Shown here: piece after piece, positions 23,899 to 31,110 of the stretch | How the letters are laid out: each line of letters starts with the position of its first letter | Numbering within the stretch: the stretch's first letter is position 1 | NCBI GenBank assembly: GCA_000747625.2 | Contig: JQDQ01000200.1 | Coordinates: forward strand, 1 to 34,795 | Direction of reading: 5' to 3' | Source of the DNA: Smithella sp. SCADC | Lineage (GTDB): Bacteria > Desulfobacterota > Syntrophia > Syntrophales > Smithellaceae | Length of the DNA: 34,795 bases | Made by a program: the position numbers and the translations under genes | The notes under the pieces: generated by a model | Database searches by the model: none | Seen by the model: the letters and a program-made list of their open reading frames with translations, nothing else | What the model was told of the DNA's origin: nothing

Positions 23899-24125
23899 GA
23901 ATAACTTAATGACAGGTGATTTCTGTAGAAAGTTAGGCTTCCATTCAAAGCCCCCGTCAAGCAAAATATATCTTATTGCCAATGAATTTTATTTTTGCCG
24001 ACGGATGATGCCATCGCCTTAGTATTTCTTTAAGTTATAATACCAATCATTATATTGCTATTATGAATTTGCTTTTCGTTTTTTATGTCGCTATAAACCC
24101 ACAACTTATCTCAAGGGGAGGTTTT

Positions 24126-25202
24126 ATGAAGAACATTTTTTCAACCCGCACAGGTATTATTATTGTCGGCGCCATTATCGGCATTGGCGCAGCAGTACTG
24201 CAGTATTTCGGCAATCCGCCAAACATGGGCATTTGTGTGGCCTGCTTTGAACGGGATATTGCCGGTGCTTTAGGTTTGCACCGGGCTGATGTTGTCCAGT
24301 ATCTGCGACCGGAAATTATGGGGTTTGTTCTGGGCGCTTTTATCGCGGCGGCTTTGGCCGGCGAGTATAAACCGCGCGGCGGTTCATCTCCTTTAATCCG
24401 TTTTTTTCTGGGATTATTTGCCATGATCGGCGCTCTGATATTTCTAGGCTGTCCATGGCGGGCGCTCTTGCGTCTGGCCGGCGGTGACGGAAACGCTATT
24501 CTGGGAATACTGGGCTTGATAACGGGAATATTTATCGGCATTATGTTTTTAAAAAACGGCTTCAGCCTTGGACGTTCCTATTCTCAGGCAAGAACCAGTG
24601 GATGGATTATGCTTGGCCTGATGCTTGGATTACTTTTTTTACTAACATTCCATGTATTATTTGCTCCAGGCGGGCCCATCTTTTTCAGTGCCAAAGGTCC
24701 TGGTTCAATGCACGCCTCTATCGTAATTAGTCTTGCCGCCGGTCTTATAATTGGCGTCCTTGCTCAGCGCAGCCGTTTCTGCACAATGGGGGCATTCAGG
24801 GATGTTATGCTTACCAAAGATTTTCATCTGATCAGTGGCGTAATTTCTTTGCTGGTTTTCGCCTTTGTGGCAAACCTCATTTTGGGACAGTTCCATCCCG
24901 GCTTTGAAGGCCAGCCTGTAGCCCATACAAATCATGTGTGGAACTTCATGGGAATGTCTCTCTCCGGCCTTGCTTTCGCGCTGGCAGGGGGTTGTCCCGG
25001 CAGACAGCTTTTTCTTTCCGGCGAAGGTGACGCGGATGCGGGAGTCTTCGTTCTGGGAATGATTGTGGGCGCTGGTATCTCGCATAATTTCGCTATGGCC
25101 AGTTCTCCCAAAGGCGTTGCCGCCTTCGGACCCATTGCTGTTATTGTCGGAATTATATTTTGCCTGATTATCGGTTTTTCAATGATGCAGAAAGCGAAAT
25201 AG
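24126..25202 (+). CDS. yedE: YedE-related membrane protein (YeeE/YedE family, selenium-metabolism type)
   Basis: This 358-aa membrane protein has about nine to ten hydrophobic segments. YeeE/YedE-type half-repeats are seen: GCPWRALLRLAGGDGNA near residue 105 and GCPGRQLFLSGEGDADA near 300, plus SRFCTMGAFRDVM near 220 and NMGICVACFERDIAG near 37. YeeE homologues import thiosulfate through conserved Cys. The present subtype (TIGR04112-like) is tied to selenium metabolism by co-occurrence. AGGGGAGG precedes the ATG at 24126; an earlier in-frame ATG has no ribosome site. It heads an operon with DUF3343, a kinase-like gene and yedF. It may import a selenium or sulfur compound. Confidence 0.88.
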   Translation: MKNIFSTRTGIIIVGAIIGIGAAVLQYFGNPPNMGICVACFERDIAGALGLHRADVVQYLRPEIMGFVLGAFIAAALAGEYKPRGGSSPLIRFFLGLFAMIGALIFLGCPWRALLRLAGGDGNAILGILGLITGIFIGIMFLKNGFSLGRSYSQARTSGWIMLGLMLGLLFLLTFHVLFAPGGPIFFSAKGPGSMHASIVISLAAGLIIGVLAQRSRFCTMGAFRDVMLTKDFHLISGVISLLVFAFVANLILGQFHPGFEGQPVAHTNHVWNFMGMSLSGLAFALAGGCPGRQLFLSGEGDADAGVFVLGMIVGAGISHNFAMASSPKGVAAFGPIAVIVGIIFCLIIGFSMMQKAK

Positions 25203-25214
25203 GAAAATAAACTG

Positions 25215-25748
25215 ATGTTGTTCGGCAAAAAAAATAAAAATGTTTTTGAAGGTGGCGGGCTCGTTCTTTTTCAAGCCGTTGAGGAAGCGATAGCGGCGGA
25301 AAAAATTCTTAAAACTGAAAATTACGAAGTTAAATTGGTTGCACCTCCGCCTCAGTTGCGCAAAGGCTGTGATTTAGCCGTGGAAATTAATATTGTGGAA
25401 AAGGCGGGCGTGGAAAGATTACTCCGTCAAAAGGAAACTTGTTTTGTGGAAATACTTCCGTTGAAAGGCGCGGGAGAGCTGCTGGATATTGTCAAAATAA
25501 AATGTTTTGATAATGCCTGTATGGTCAAAGCGGGAAACATGAAGCTTTCTTTTGATAAAAAAACCGGCGTGATTTTGAACATCTCAGGAGGAGGCTGTCC
25601 CGATATACCTTTTTTGCATATCAGTATGCTGGATAAGAAATTAACTGAAGTATCCAGTCCAAAAGAAAAAGGCTACACTCTTTGCGCGCTGATGCTGGAT
25701 CGGGCTTTTACCGAAGCTCTGGATATCTGGAATAAGGAGGGCAACTGA
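25215..25748 (+). CDS. DUF3343-containing protein
   Basis: This 177-aa protein has an N-terminal DUF3343 region (about residues 14-75: GGLVLFQAVEEAIAAEKILKTENYEVKLVAPPPQLRKGCDLAVEI), found with YedE/YedF in selenium-associated operons. The second half (about 85-170) is unassigned and has FDNACMVKAGNMKLSF and LNISGGGCPDIPFLHISML. The Cys in RKGCDLA is the typical family Cys, and GGGCPD adds another. The start ATG follows AGGAAAA and lies 12 nt after yedE. The next gene follows by one base. A sulfur or selenium relay role with YedF is inference. Confidence 0.82.
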   Translation: MLFGKKNKNVFEGGGLVLFQAVEEAIAAEKILKTENYEVKLVAPPPQLRKGCDLAVEINIVEKAGVERLLRQKETCFVEILPLKGAGELLDIVKIKCFDNACMVKAGNMKLSFDKKTGVILNISGGGCPDIPFLHISMLDKKLTEVSSPKEKGYTLCALMLDRAFTEALDIWNKEGN

Positions 25749-25749
25749 A

Positions 25750-26601
25750 ATGCTCCTTATTTGCGGAACAATTCCTCAGGAAAACATATCAGTCATAACC
25801 GGCGAAGCACAATTCGACGGGAATAAGTTATTTATCCAGAATACGGAAATACCATGCACTCAAGGAACAGCCGCATTGATCAGCGCAGCCTGTGTTACGG
25901 CTCAACATTTTAAAAGCCCTCCACCACGTGTTATTCTTGCTGGTGATATCGGCAAAGGCAAGGGCAGTCACCTTCTTTATGACTACATCATTAAGAATAT
26001 TGCTCAGATCAACCCTGATATTCTCCTTATGCATTATATTCTTCCGGTAATGGGCCTGATGAAGAAGGTCAATGCCGCGGCATCTAAATGCAAAAAAAAG
26101 CCGGTGATGATCGCGGACGCTTCCTCAATGTACGCAGCCAAAGCCGCCGGACTGGCCCCTCAATTCGATATCTTCACGCCGGATATTTGCGAGATGGCCT
26201 TTCTGGCCGACCCGGACGCTATTCATCCTGCTTATATCAGCCATCATTTATTCAGCGCGGAATCCGCCCAGGCGCAGGAGTTAATCACCGCCGCTAGCAG
26301 GCAGACAAGTGCGGCAAAAATTCTAATTGTCAAAGGCGCAACTGATTACGTTGTTAAGGACGGTAAAATTGTTTTTACAATCTCCGAACCGGACATACCG
26401 GCGCTGGAAGCTATCGGCGGGACCGGAGACACAATAAGCGGCATGGTTGGCGCCATGATTAATGCGGGATTGACTCATAATAACGCCGCCATCACGGCAC
26501 TTAAAGCCAACCGTAAGGCCGGCGAATATGTTCAGGCGACACCAGCCACTAAAATTCGCCAAATTGTTGCCGCTATTCCCACGGCATTAAAAACTCTATA
26601 A
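25750..26601 (+). CDS. Ribokinase-superfamily/NAD(P)HX-dehydratase-like protein
   Basis: This 283-aa protein has the ribokinase-like fold of sugar kinases and ADP-dependent NAD(P)H-hydrate dehydratase. Near the C-terminus EAIGGTGDTISGMVGAMINAG is the anion hole with catalytic Asp; KILIVKGATDYVVKDGKIVF precedes it and DIFTPDICEMAFLAD sits mid-protein. The N-terminus (LLICGTIPQENISVITG) is not a typical sugar-kinase start. It lies one base after the DUF3343 gene. The substrate is unknown; in yedE-type operons such a protein is sometimes found, perhaps for a selenium-containing or pyridine-nucleotide substrate. Confidence 0.72.
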   Translation: MLLICGTIPQENISVITGEAQFDGNKLFIQNTEIPCTQGTAALISAACVTAQHFKSPPPRVILAGDIGKGKGSHLLYDYIIKNIAQINPDILLMHYILPVMGLMKKVNAAASKCKKKPVMIADASSMYAAKAAGLAPQFDIFTPDICEMAFLADPDAIHPAYISHHLFSAESAQAQELITAASRQTSAAKILIVKGATDYVVKDGKIVFTISEPDIPALEAIGGTGDTISGMVGAMINAGLTHNNAAITALKANRKAGEYVQATPATKIRQIVAAIPTALKTL

Positions 26602-26623
26602 TTTAAAAGAAAGGATGGAAATT

Positions 26624-26842
26624 ATGATCGAAGTAGATGTGAAAGGCTTAAGTTGCCCGATACCGGTTGTAAGAACAAAACAGGCTATGGAAAAAAATCC
26701 GGTCGAGATAATTACTGTTTTTGCGGACAGCACGGTTTCCAAAGAAAATGTCTCAAGACTGGCGGAATCGAAAAAATATTCGGTAAAGGTGGAGACCATT
26801 GCCGAGGAAGAATACAAACTGGTTTTGACGCCATCAGCCTGA
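26624..26842 (+). CDS. yedF: TusA/YedF-type sulfur (selenium) carrier protein
   Basis: This 72-aa TusA-fold protein starts MIEVDVKGLSCPIPVVRTKQAM, with the carrier Cys at Cys11 in the CPxP motif. It corresponds to the N-terminal domain of YedF and lacks the roughly 110-aa C-terminal domain of the selenium-metabolism YedF proteins; the DUF3343-type unit is encoded separately upstream. AAAGGA lies 8 nt before the ATG at 26624; the ATG at 26615 lies inside that ribosome site. It is the last gene of the yedE operon and the likely carrier of persulfide or selenide from the YedE importer. Confidence 0.9.
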   Translation: MIEVDVKGLSCPIPVVRTKQAMEKNPVEIITVFADSTVSKENVSRLAESKKYSVKVETIAEEEYKLVLTPSA

Positions 26843-28695: not shown

Positions 28696-29098
28696 TTAAT
28701 CGCCTTCGGCCAGTTGTTCCAGCGCTTTGTGATCCCGAATGGTGATGACACGGCCTGCTGTGGAGAGGATACCGTCATTGGCCATTTTTCTTAAGGCGCT
28801 GGGATAATATCTGAATGATGTTGAAAAGAAGAGGCGGTTCCTGCCTTGCTATCGCCTCCATGACCGTGCCGGGTATTAGAAGAACGGCGCTTTCTTCTAT
28901 GGCCATGGCAGATGCCGGAAAGGATTCGGTTGCAAATGCCGTGCAAAGGCCGAAAGGATCCCCCGGGCCGAGCAGTTGCAGGGTCTGTTCTTTGCCTTCC
29001 GCTGAACTCCTATAAAGTTTCAACTGACCGGAGATGACCACATAAAAAGACCGGATGGGATCCGACTTGCCGATAACCATTTCACCCGGTTTAAACTT
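28696..29098 (-). pseudogene. Crp/Fnr-type regulator remnant
   Basis: The minus strand encodes most of a cyclic-nucleotide-binding domain from KFKPGEMVIGKSDPIRSFYVVISGQLKLYR to FNIIQILSQRLKK (28778-29098). It then runs straight into another frame giving the last residues of a Crp/Fnr protein (NDGILSTAGRVITIRDHKALEQLAEGD, stop at 28696). The HTH recognition segment, about 60-70 residues, is missing and the frame is lost. The N-terminus is also lost, with a TAG just upstream of KKFKPGE. The gene cannot make a functional regulator. Confidence 0.82.
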
Positions 29099-29105
29099 CT
29101 TCTAC

Positions 29106-29354
29106 GTTGCCTGCGCTATCAGTGAGCTTAATTTTAGTACAGTGGTATTAAAAGAAGAAACGCCGACTTTGGTGGATTTCTGGGCGCCCTGGTGCGGTCC
29201 ATGCAGGGTAATCGGCCCGATTTTAGAAGAGCTTGCGGCCGAATACGGCGAACGGATCAATATAGTCAAAGTGAATGTAGATGATAATCCGGCAACCGCT
29301 TCTCAGTATGGAGTTCGGAGCATACCGACATTGATTTTATTTACAACTGTATAG
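29106..29354 (+). pseudogene. Thioredoxin gene fragment
   Basis: The frame gives ISELNFSTVVLKEETPTLVDFWAPWCGPCRVIGPILEEL and VNVDDNPATASQYGVRSIPTLILF, with a complete WCGPC active site and the cis-Pro. It ends at FTTV, so the final strand and helix (about 25 residues) are missing. The N-terminus begins in the overlap with the crp remnant on the other strand, and no proper start or ribosome site is visible. The frame is open from an ATG at 29055, but those first codons are the antisense of the crp remnant. It is probably inactive. Confidence 0.75.
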
Positions 29355-29847: not shown

Positions 29848-29978
29848 CTAGTACCTACTTGCAGAAAAACGATGTCATCTCGAAGGAACGGAGTGACTGA
29901 GAAATATGCGAGATCACTAAATAGATTTCTCCCTGCGGTCGAAATGACAAATCACGAACTTCTGCAAGTAGGTACTAG
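29848..29978. mobile_element. 131-bp MITE-like element with 19-bp perfect terminal inverted repeats
   Basis: CTAGTACCTACTTGCAGAA (29848-29866) is the exact reverse complement of 29960-29978. The interior holds further nested pairs: GTCAT near 29873 with ATGAC near 29943, and GAGAAAT with ATTTCTC. It encodes nothing. CTAG at both outer ends would be a 4-bp target duplication of the type IS5-family elements make. The interior resembles palindromic repeats common in some environmental bacterial genomes. Confidence 0.78.
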
Positions 29979-30063: not shown

Positions 30064-30219
30064 ATGAACGATACACTAATTTTACTTTTGGTACTGGCTG
30101 TGTGGATTTTTTTGCAGGGGTGGCTATTGCCGCGCATGGGCGTCTCCACCTGAGTGAGGCAAGCTTGTCCGGTGGACAAGAAGGAAAGAACTGTGGCGGA
30201 AAGCGATCAGAAACACTGA
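30064..30219 (+). CDS. Candidate selenocysteine-containing small membrane protein (in-frame TGA)
   Basis: From ATG 30064, preceded by AGAAGG, the frame gives MNDTLILLLVLAVWIFLQGW plus LLPRMGVST and hits TGA at 30151-30153. The same frame continues with VRQACPVDKKERTVAESDQKH to a TGA at 30217-30219, giving 51 residues plus the TGA-encoded one. One membrane segment (residues 4-22) is followed by ST-[TGA]-VRQAC, so a Sec would sit five residues before a Cys, as in redox-active pairs. A 7-bp hairpin with a GG-starting loop lies 17 nt after TGA, as bacterial SECIS elements require. The downstream codons look protein-like. The alternative is a 29-aa peptide ending at TGA. Confidence 0.6.
30154..30180 (+). 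promoter_or_regulatory. SECIS-like hairpin downstream of TGA
   Basis: CTTGTCC (30164-30170) and GGACAAG (30174-30180) form seven perfect base pairs with loop GGT. The loop begins 17 nt after TGA and starts with GG, as reported for bacterial SECIS elements. No T-run follows, so it is not a terminator. Confidence 0.55.
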
Positions 30220-30256: not shown

Positions 30257-30463
30257 ATGAAAAAGAACATGGGAACAATAGACCGGGTTATTAGAATATT
30301 ACTGGCCATTGTGGTAATTGTCCTTTACTTAAACGGCAGTATTACAGGTGTTGCTGCGATTATTCTGGGCATTGTGGCCTTTATTTTTATAGTAACGAGC
30401 CTGATCGGTTTTTGCCCTTTATATGTACCTCTTAACATTTCCACGATCGGTAAACCAAAGTGA
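30257..30463 (+). CDS. DUF2892 family membrane protein
   Basis: This 68-aa protein has the DUF2892 pattern: MKKNMGTIDRVIRILLAIVVIVLYL, then two membrane segments and FIVTSLIGFCPLYVPLNI with the conserved Cys-Pro. In E. coli YgaP the same domain anchors a rhodanese. AAAGGA precedes the ATG. It follows the candidate selenoprotein by 37 nt and overlaps the following methyltransferase. Sulfur or selenium transfer near the membrane would fit but is inference. Confidence 0.9.
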   Translation: MKKNMGTIDRVIRILLAIVVIVLYLNGSITGVAAIILGIVAFIFIVTSLIGFCPLYVPLNISTIGKPK

Positions 30464-31110
30464 AGCGAGGGGGAGATGAAATAAATACTAAAAAACGTAA
30501 TTTCGATCAGGATGCCGCTAACTGGGATCAGGTTCCCGACCGTGTAAAAGTGGCTCAAGATATTGCTCAGAGCATGATTCGGGAAATAACCTTAACGCCC
30601 GATATGGACATTCTGGATTTCGGTTGCGGTACAGGACTGCTGACGCTTGCCTTGCAGCCTTTTGTCCATTCCATAACCGGCGTGGATAGCTCCCCGGCGA
30701 TGCTTGATGTTTTTAAAACAAAGATCAGAGAACAAAACCTGAAAAAAGTAAAAGCCGAATACGTTAACCTGGACAAGGGTGATGTTCTGACTGATTCTTA
30801 TCATCTGATTGTCAGTAGCATGACCTTGCATCACGTTAAAAACACACCCGCTTTGTTAAAACAATTTAATTCGGTTTTACTCCCGGCCGGCCTACTTGCC
30901 ATTGCTGATCTGGATCTGGATGACGGCCAGTTTCACAGCAATAATGAAGGTGTATTCCACTTCGGGTTTGATCGGGAAGCTTTGCGCCTTATATTGATGG
31001 ATTCAGGATTCCGAAATATTCGATCACTTAAGGCGGCCGAAATTGAAAAACCGGTTGGTAATGGTAAAAACCGGCTGTTTACAATATTCTTGATGACAGC
31101 CTGCAAATAA
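30460..31110 (+). CDS. Class I SAM-dependent methyltransferase
   Basis: This methyltransferase of about 216 aa has NFDQDAANWDQVPDRV at its start, motif I ILDFGCGTGLLTLALQPF (about residues 50-67), ITGVDSSPAMLD, DLIVSSMTLHHV-type motif (HLIVSSMTLHHVKN) and LLPAGLLAIADLDLDDG. It is UbiE-like, with similar proteins acting on quinones, metalloids or small thiols. The start is uncertain: the GTG at 30460 overlaps the previous stop. A strong GAGGGGGAG sits further on but is followed in this frame only by ATA/AAT codons, not a usual start. Confidence 0.85.
   Translation: MKRGGDEINTKKRNFDQDAANWDQVPDRVKVAQDIAQSMIREITLTPDMDILDFGCGTGLLTLALQPFVHSITGVDSSPAMLDVFKTKIREQNLKKVKAEYVNLDKGDVLTDSYHLIVSSMTLHHVKNTPALLKQFNSVLLPAGLLAIADLDLDDGQFHSNNEGVFHFGFDREALRLILMDSGFRNIRSLKAAEIEKPVGNGKNRLFTIFLMTACK

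Follow-up and report, generated by a model that had tools for sequence, protein, structure and literature searches.

A predicted 51-residue membrane selenoprotein in Smithella sp. SCADC and its apparently uncatalogued family

The window, a 34,795-nucleotide stretch of DNA from Smithella sp. SCADC, very probably contains a gene for a small membrane selenoprotein, in which the UGA at codon 30 would be read as selenocysteine (Sec) by means of a downstream SECIS hairpin. The sequence-only reading had proposed such a gene, and the proposal is upheld by a TGA that is invariant over a wide phylogeny, a SECIS hairpin conserved beyond the demands of the protein, and the presence of selB, selD, and tRNA-Sec in the genome (selA was not found). 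With the first TGA translated as Sec, the gene gives a 51-residue product, MNDTLILLLVLAVWIFLQGWLLPRMGVSTUVRQACPVDKKERTVAESDQKH (30064-30216), from 29 codons, the TGA, 21 further codons, and a second TGA as the stop (Table 1). The translation agrees with the 29-residue membrane segment ending in ST-TGA, followed by 21 in-frame codons with a Cys at U+5, that had been described before. By inspection, AAGAAGG precedes the ATG as a ribosome site. Gene annotation would truncate the protein at the TGA of codon 30.

Table 1 Features of the predicted selenoprotein gene and its neighbors in the window.
Feature	Position	Strand	Evidence
Predicted small membrane selenoprotein gene, 51 residues with Sec30, second TGA as stop	30064..30219	+	Translation, homologues
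N-terminal transmembrane helix (predicted), residues ~2-25, running into LP[RK]xG[IV]xT before Sec	30064..30138	+	Hydropathy, AlphaFold
Putative Sec-encoding TGA	30151..30153	+	TGA in 177/177 distinct homologues
Putative SECIS hairpin, 7-bp stem, loop GGT beginning 17 nt after TGA	30164..30180	+	
Cys35 codon (U-x4-C)	30166..30168	+	Cys here in 165/177 homologues
Terminating TGA	30217..30219	+	Relatives use TGA, TAA, or TAG
Thioredoxin gene, C-terminal part lost (match to residues 3-83 of 111)	29094..29339	+	Intact directly upstream in relatives
Remnant of divergent Crp-family regulator (residues 15-136 and 194-226, different frames)	28699..29164	-	
DUF2892/YgaP-like transmembrane protein, 37 bp downstream	30257..30463	+	Downstream neighbor in 15/177 loci
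SAM-dependent methyltransferase	30460..31110	+	Relative nearby in 6/177 loci

The family is large and is found in many sulfate-reducing and syntrophic bacteria; if our reading is right, it is a widespread selenoprotein of the phylum. Within the window's class, 78 of 155 genomes contain a match (E 0.01 or better). Exactly one TGA is present in 87 of the 89 matches, and the other two, one with two TGAs and one with a TAA, look like chance hits. A 20-row profile run over 395 genomes of the phylum matched 170, three of which (G157, G226, and G368) are probably chance. Matches were listed down to about E 1e-9, and the 20 genomes with weaker matches were searched again and their letters read; TGA stands at the site in 17 of these, including the probably decayed L249, the rest being the three probable chance genomes. 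Letters were read for the phylum matches L128-L155 and L236-L255, and most other listed matches were judged from a listing of in-frame stops, where the TAA or TAG that several of them also show was taken for the true stop. Named genomes were scanned with a single degenerate pattern that stops short of the Sec codon. From the 342 relatives that it returned, 80 loci were kept, and all 80 have TGA at the site. Carriers include Desulfonema magnum, Desulfosarcina widdelii, Desulfosarcina alkanivorans, Desulfoluna limicola, and Desulfobotulus alkaliphilus, and the record titles of the kept loci name mostly Desulfobacterales, Desulfobacteraceae, and Deltaproteobacteria, with some Smithella/Syntrophaceae. 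Single MAGs labelled Margulisbacteria (L216) and Eisenbacteria (L232) also carry the family, possibly through mis-binning. No relative was found in the viral contigs, plasmids, or phages searched. After removal of the chance hits L098 and L106 and of identical copies, 177 distinct sequences remain. L049, with a run of N in its tail, and L142, missed by a position filter, were also dropped, both with the TGA present, and one of two overlapping readings of L093 was dropped before the counts. L073, which is counted among the 177, has another stop upstream of the site and is probably decayed.

The site codon is TGA in all 177 distinct sequences, and their final stops are divided among TGA (82), TAA (70), and TAG (25). 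A set of 88 less-related representatives likewise ends in TGA (41), TAA (33), or TAG (14). A codon that is always TGA while the final stops are mixed is not behaving as a terminator. The sequence-only reading had named relatives with Cys or TGA at the site as support, and had counted a lack of Cys homologues in this column against a selenoprotein. The TGA is conserved throughout; no Cys form was seen at the Sec column among the matches read in the class, the phylum, and the named genomes, other phyla being reached through the pattern scan of named genomes. The search profiles carried Cys at this column and so favored Cys forms. We believe that the absence of Cys homologues is better understood as a trait of a Sec-only family than as evidence against a selenoprotein.

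Conservation extends to both sides of the TGA, as had been anticipated for a codon that is read through. The ratio pN/pS is 0.28 upstream of the TGA and 0.52 over codons +1 to +9; farther on it is 0.74, a weak signal when compared with 0.80 and 0.98 in the shifted frames and 0.95 after the stop. Part of the conservation right after Sec is explained by the RNA hairpin. Upstream, every sequence has P at -7 and G at -4, and 174 of 177 have T at -1. Cys at +5 is absent in 12, so U-x4-C is not essential to all members. The residues after Sec number 21 in the window protein and 11-46 in relatives, and the downstream frame never closes before 11 codons in the 177 sequences. Beyond codon +9, the tail contains 22.7% Lys vs 6.4% past the stop, and it is poor in hydrophobic residues, unlike the post-stop sequence. 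Four members (L243, L245, L246, and L247) have two in-frame TGAs in the arrangement PSU...PTUDGxxC. By their folds alone, a hairpin follows each of their TGAs, and after the second TGA come a Cys and a basic tail like that of the other members.

The hairpin of the window has a perfect 7-bp stem (30164-30170/30174-30180) and the loop GGT (30171-30173). The perfect stem and the GG-starting loop had been noted before and are confirmed; the distance of 17 nt after the TGA that had been given for the hairpin belongs to the apical loop, and the stem begins at 10 nt. Taken alone, this fold is mildly better than chance (z -1.48, with 17 of 200 shuffles equally good), and the question therefore had to be settled by comparing relatives. 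According to the available text of PMC13188914, the published bacterial SECIS model calls for a loop of 3-9 nt that lies 16-37 nt from the UGA and has G in its first two positions. We coded this model without its energy limit and applied it to the whole family. The SECIS geometry that the sequence-only reading had recognized in the window recurs in 154 of the 177 distinct sequences, compared with a mean of 53.0 (sd 4.7, max 62) in 20 synonymous recodings, and 23 sequences do not fit the model. Among the 88 less-related representatives, 74 fit, compared with 26.8 (sd 4.1, max 35) in 100 synonymous recodings. The mean folding energy of the 177 sequences is -12.8 kcal/mol vs -9.4 kcal/mol after recoding, and 130 of the 154 positive sequences have a loop that begins 16 or 17 nt past the TGA. 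The commonest fixed stem register is that of 88 of the 177 sequences; each of its five inner pairs can form in 83 to 88 of them and each of the next three in 51 to 70, and several pairs show C-G/T-A exchanges. A second fixed register fits 15 of the 177 sequences, and 74 fit neither register ungapped. Synonymous differences are also lower in the hairpin zone (pS 0.40 vs 0.61 upstream). These comparisons support an RNA hairpin that is conserved beyond what the protein sequence demands. Rfam gave no match for the window at the gathering threshold.

The selA, selB, selC, and selD genes had been pointed to as the machinery that the window's genome should possess. We found selB (377 bits), a tRNA-Sec with a TCA anticodon (73.8 bits), and selD with an in-frame TGA, so the genome appears able to make Sec. 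selA was not found in the window's own MAG, perhaps owing to an assembly gap, as selB lies near a contig end. Across the phylum sample, 162 of the 170 genomes with the family have selB, as do 191 of the 225 without it (Fisher p 0.0008 with relatedness ignored, from a two-by-two count made by eye that includes the three chance genomes). Of the eight family-positive genomes without selB, seven contain selA, so that 169 of the 170 have selB or selA. Taken as an ordinary stop, the TGA would end a 29-residue membrane peptide and leave the hairpin in untranslated RNA, which would suit the mildly unusual window hairpin, the weak constraint on the tail past it, and a decayed-looking member (L249, from G363) with TAG three codons after the TGA, but this is hardly tenable given the invariant TGA with mixed later stops, the open Lys-rich and hydrophobe-poor tail, the Sec genes of family-positive genomes, and the four members with a second in-frame TGA.

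Regarding the Sec genes themselves, the selD gene of the window's genome (C225:3308-4237) is itself a predicted selenoprotein gene. Three tRNA-Sec-like genes with a TCA anticodon (L002, L003, and L004, on contigs C191 and C241) occur in the window's own MAG, two of them on one contig; they may be either paralogues or contamination, which is estimated at 8%.

Hydropathy and an AlphaFold model (pLDDT 66, pTM 0.33) give the Sec-containing protein one helix, at residues ~2-26, and a loose tail. On average, the segment before the helix has a net charge of -0.3 and the 20 residues that follow the helix one of +2.3. By the positive-inside rule, the positively charged flank of a membrane helix is cytoplasmic. 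A neutral-to-acidic N-terminus and a basic tail therefore place Sec on the cytoplasmic face, and the protein is likely to be a cytoplasm-facing membrane anchor with its N-terminus out and its C-terminus in.

No single conserved partner gene is found in 158 loci, nor in the full set of 177, and the neighbors differ by lineage. All neighbor counts are lower bounds, since 1 kb of upstream sequence is available in 169 of the 177 loci, 2.5 kb in 127, and 5.5 kb in 57, and 2.5 kb on both sides in 109. In 33 loci, there is a thioredoxin gene no more than 1 kb away, upstream on the same strand in 32 and on the other strand in the Margulisbacteria-labelled MAG. The 32 same-strand loci comprise 29 from the window's class together with L131, L136, and L137. 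Thioredoxin also adjoins a distant member (L252), and a flavoprotein that looks TrxB-like (Pfam Pyr_redox_2) adjoins L146 and L150. A Crp-family regulator is near the gene in 24 of 177 loci and is divergent in 23 of them. In the window, the thioredoxin and Crp genes (28699-29339) look decayed, and both are full-length in several related genomes.

Thioredoxin genes nearby in separate lineages, a U-x4-C motif at the membrane, and the absence of a catalytic domain suggest a selenol reduced by thioredoxin, acting as a relay or a reductase. In the mechanism that we propose, the protein would consist of a single transmembrane helix and a short positive tail, with Sec just after the helix in LP[RK]xG[IV]xTU and Cys five residues on. 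Sec30 and Cys35 might form a selenenylsulfide that is reduced by thioredoxin, and the membrane-tethered selenol might then hand the electrons of thioredoxin to a substrate at the membrane surface, which may be a peroxide, a disulfide, or a partner redox protein. We put forward the thioredoxin-linked redox role as a tentative assignment. More tentative as a whole is the combined picture of a Sec-only, minimal membrane selenoprotein family in about two in five genomes of the phylum and a few others, serving as a thioredoxin-fed selenol relay at the inner face and including a double-Sec branch.

Several other functions may be considered for the same protein. It might be a membrane-bound, thioredoxin-fed selenoperoxidase that detoxifies peroxides, in a layout comparable to that of eukaryotic SELENOS/SELENOK. 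The thioredoxin and TrxB-like neighbors fit such an enzyme, as does the redox role common among selenoproteins, but the protein has no peroxidase fold and no resolving partner beyond the Cys, no neighbor specific to peroxides was seen, and the family hosts are presumably anaerobes. We regard this function as conceivable but unlikely. The thioredoxin system is also named as the electron donor for SELENOS in the available text of PMC10650576, which is in line with a thioredoxin-fed enzyme.

It is quite unlikely that the protein is an accessory subunit of a membrane electron-transfer complex, in which Sec would couple an HmcB/FdhB-like Fe-S protein and a cytochrome b to thiols. Of the 177 loci, 19 have an HmcB-like Fe-S gene within 2.5 kb and 17 have its cytochrome b partner, in the window's class and Desulfobacterales, and one locus (L050) has the order of a molybdoenzyme (by its look), thioredoxin, selenoprotein, Fe-S protein, and cytochrome b. 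However, most loci lack this pair, although just 109 of the 177 have 2.5 kb on both sides. The Fe-S protein also carries RRSFLKGG, which we take to be a Tat-type signal, so its probable location is the periplasm, across the membrane from the predicted side of Sec.

A role in handling selenium or metal(loid)s, as a Se carrier or a binder of Hg or As working with YedE/YedF-like genes, appears improbable. Its basis lies mainly in the window, where YedE (TIGR04112, 504 bits), Se_S_carrier (presumably of the DUF3343 type), NAD(P)H-hydrate dehydratase-like, and TusA (of the YedF type) genes stand in a row at 24063-26842 and likely form a selenium-trafficking cluster; ArsR-type regulators, named by their look, also adjoin L131 and L252. 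The sequence-only reading had listed these neighbors correctly, with YedE/YedF/DUF3343 genes 3-6 kb away and the DUF2892 and methyltransferase genes directly following, and had suggested a selenium or sulfur redox unit; YedE, Se_S_carrier, and the TusA-domain protein lie 3.2-6 kb upstream. Among the 177 loci, YedE is near the gene in at least 4, TusA in at least 3, and Se_S_carrier in at least 2, which is a weak test of the link because just 57 loci have 5.5 kb of upstream sequence. The linkage to YedE/YedF looks local to the window, with flanks that are often too short for a judgment. Of the suggested unit, the DUF2892 gene, which in the window is likely in the same transcript as the selenoprotein gene, recurs in a subset of the loci; YedE/YedF and the methyltransferase are not regular neighbors.

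Returning to the family as a membrane selenoprotein, we compared it with known systems. NCBIfam release 20 gave no match for the window protein (E up to 0.1) or for seven relatives (E up to 1, two of the queries having a one-residue slip). Family members match Pfam weakly, through their helix (best E 0.0035, PF04602), and none of these matches is credible. By name and motif as given there, none of the 119 families and subfamilies in Table 1 of Zhang et al. 2026 (PMC13188914) corresponds to the present one, and the families of Haft and Tolstoy 2025 and of Zhang and Gladyshev 2007 were compared through this table and NCBIfam. Our literature searches returned no description of the family, and work beyond them may exist. 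With no match in NCBIfam, Pfam, the 2026 catalogue, or the literature, we take it as an apparently uncatalogued selenoprotein family of unusual form. It shares with the catalogued bacterial selenoproteins a UGA for Sec, a SECIS of the published model, and a Cys near Sec, whereas none of those is given, in the available text of PMC13188914, as a bare single-pass membrane anchor with PxxGxxTU and U-x4-C.

SELENOK and SELENOS resemble the window protein in having a single transmembrane segment near the N-terminus and an unstructured cytoplasmic C-terminal part with Sec, as far as the available text of PMC10650576 describes them. In these proteins, Sec is second or third from the C-terminus and the tail is Gly-rich, whereas 21 residues follow Sec in the window protein and the family tail has 6.1% G against 22.7% K beyond codon +9. 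Cys forms also exist in the eukaryotic family, in contrast to the present one. Since two defining features are lacking, we consider the likeness an analogy and not a membership. The adjacent DUF2892/YgaP-like protein (PF11127) is likewise a small membrane protein, but it is encoded by a separate gene without Sec, and Pfam does not place the selenoprotein in PF11127.

Searches for bacterial selenoproteins published so far depend largely on Sec/Cys pairs, and the GOS and deep-Sep papers, in their accessible parts, report new families with Cys homologues, unlike the family described here. It was missed, we believe, because its members have about 50 residues, lack Cys relatives, and end at the UGA in ordinary gene calling. 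If the selenoprotein reading is true, other short, Sec-only families may still be hidden. That Cys was not seen in place of Sec points to a chemistry for which sulfur is poorly suited, and the protein is small enough to be made and studied easily.

Other neighbors are more scattered. An ECF sigma factor is encoded directly downstream in 25 of 177 loci (for example L161, L168, and L172), and in 22 of the 25 the region of sigma factor homology overlaps the selenoprotein gene at its 3' end, so Sec readthrough could couple to translation of the sigma factor. A small anti-sigma-like gene, of zinc-finger type by its look, often follows. A 4Fe-4S protein is found in 12 of the 177 loci and Hcp/prismane in 4. 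Just upstream of the double-TGA members L243, L245, and L247 is an ORF with CxxCH-type motifs that look heme-like. In the window, a 131-bp MITE-like element with perfect 19-bp terminal inverted repeats (29848-29978) lies between the upstream genes and the selenoprotein gene. The element has 46 matches in its own genome, many of them partial or ~80% alike.
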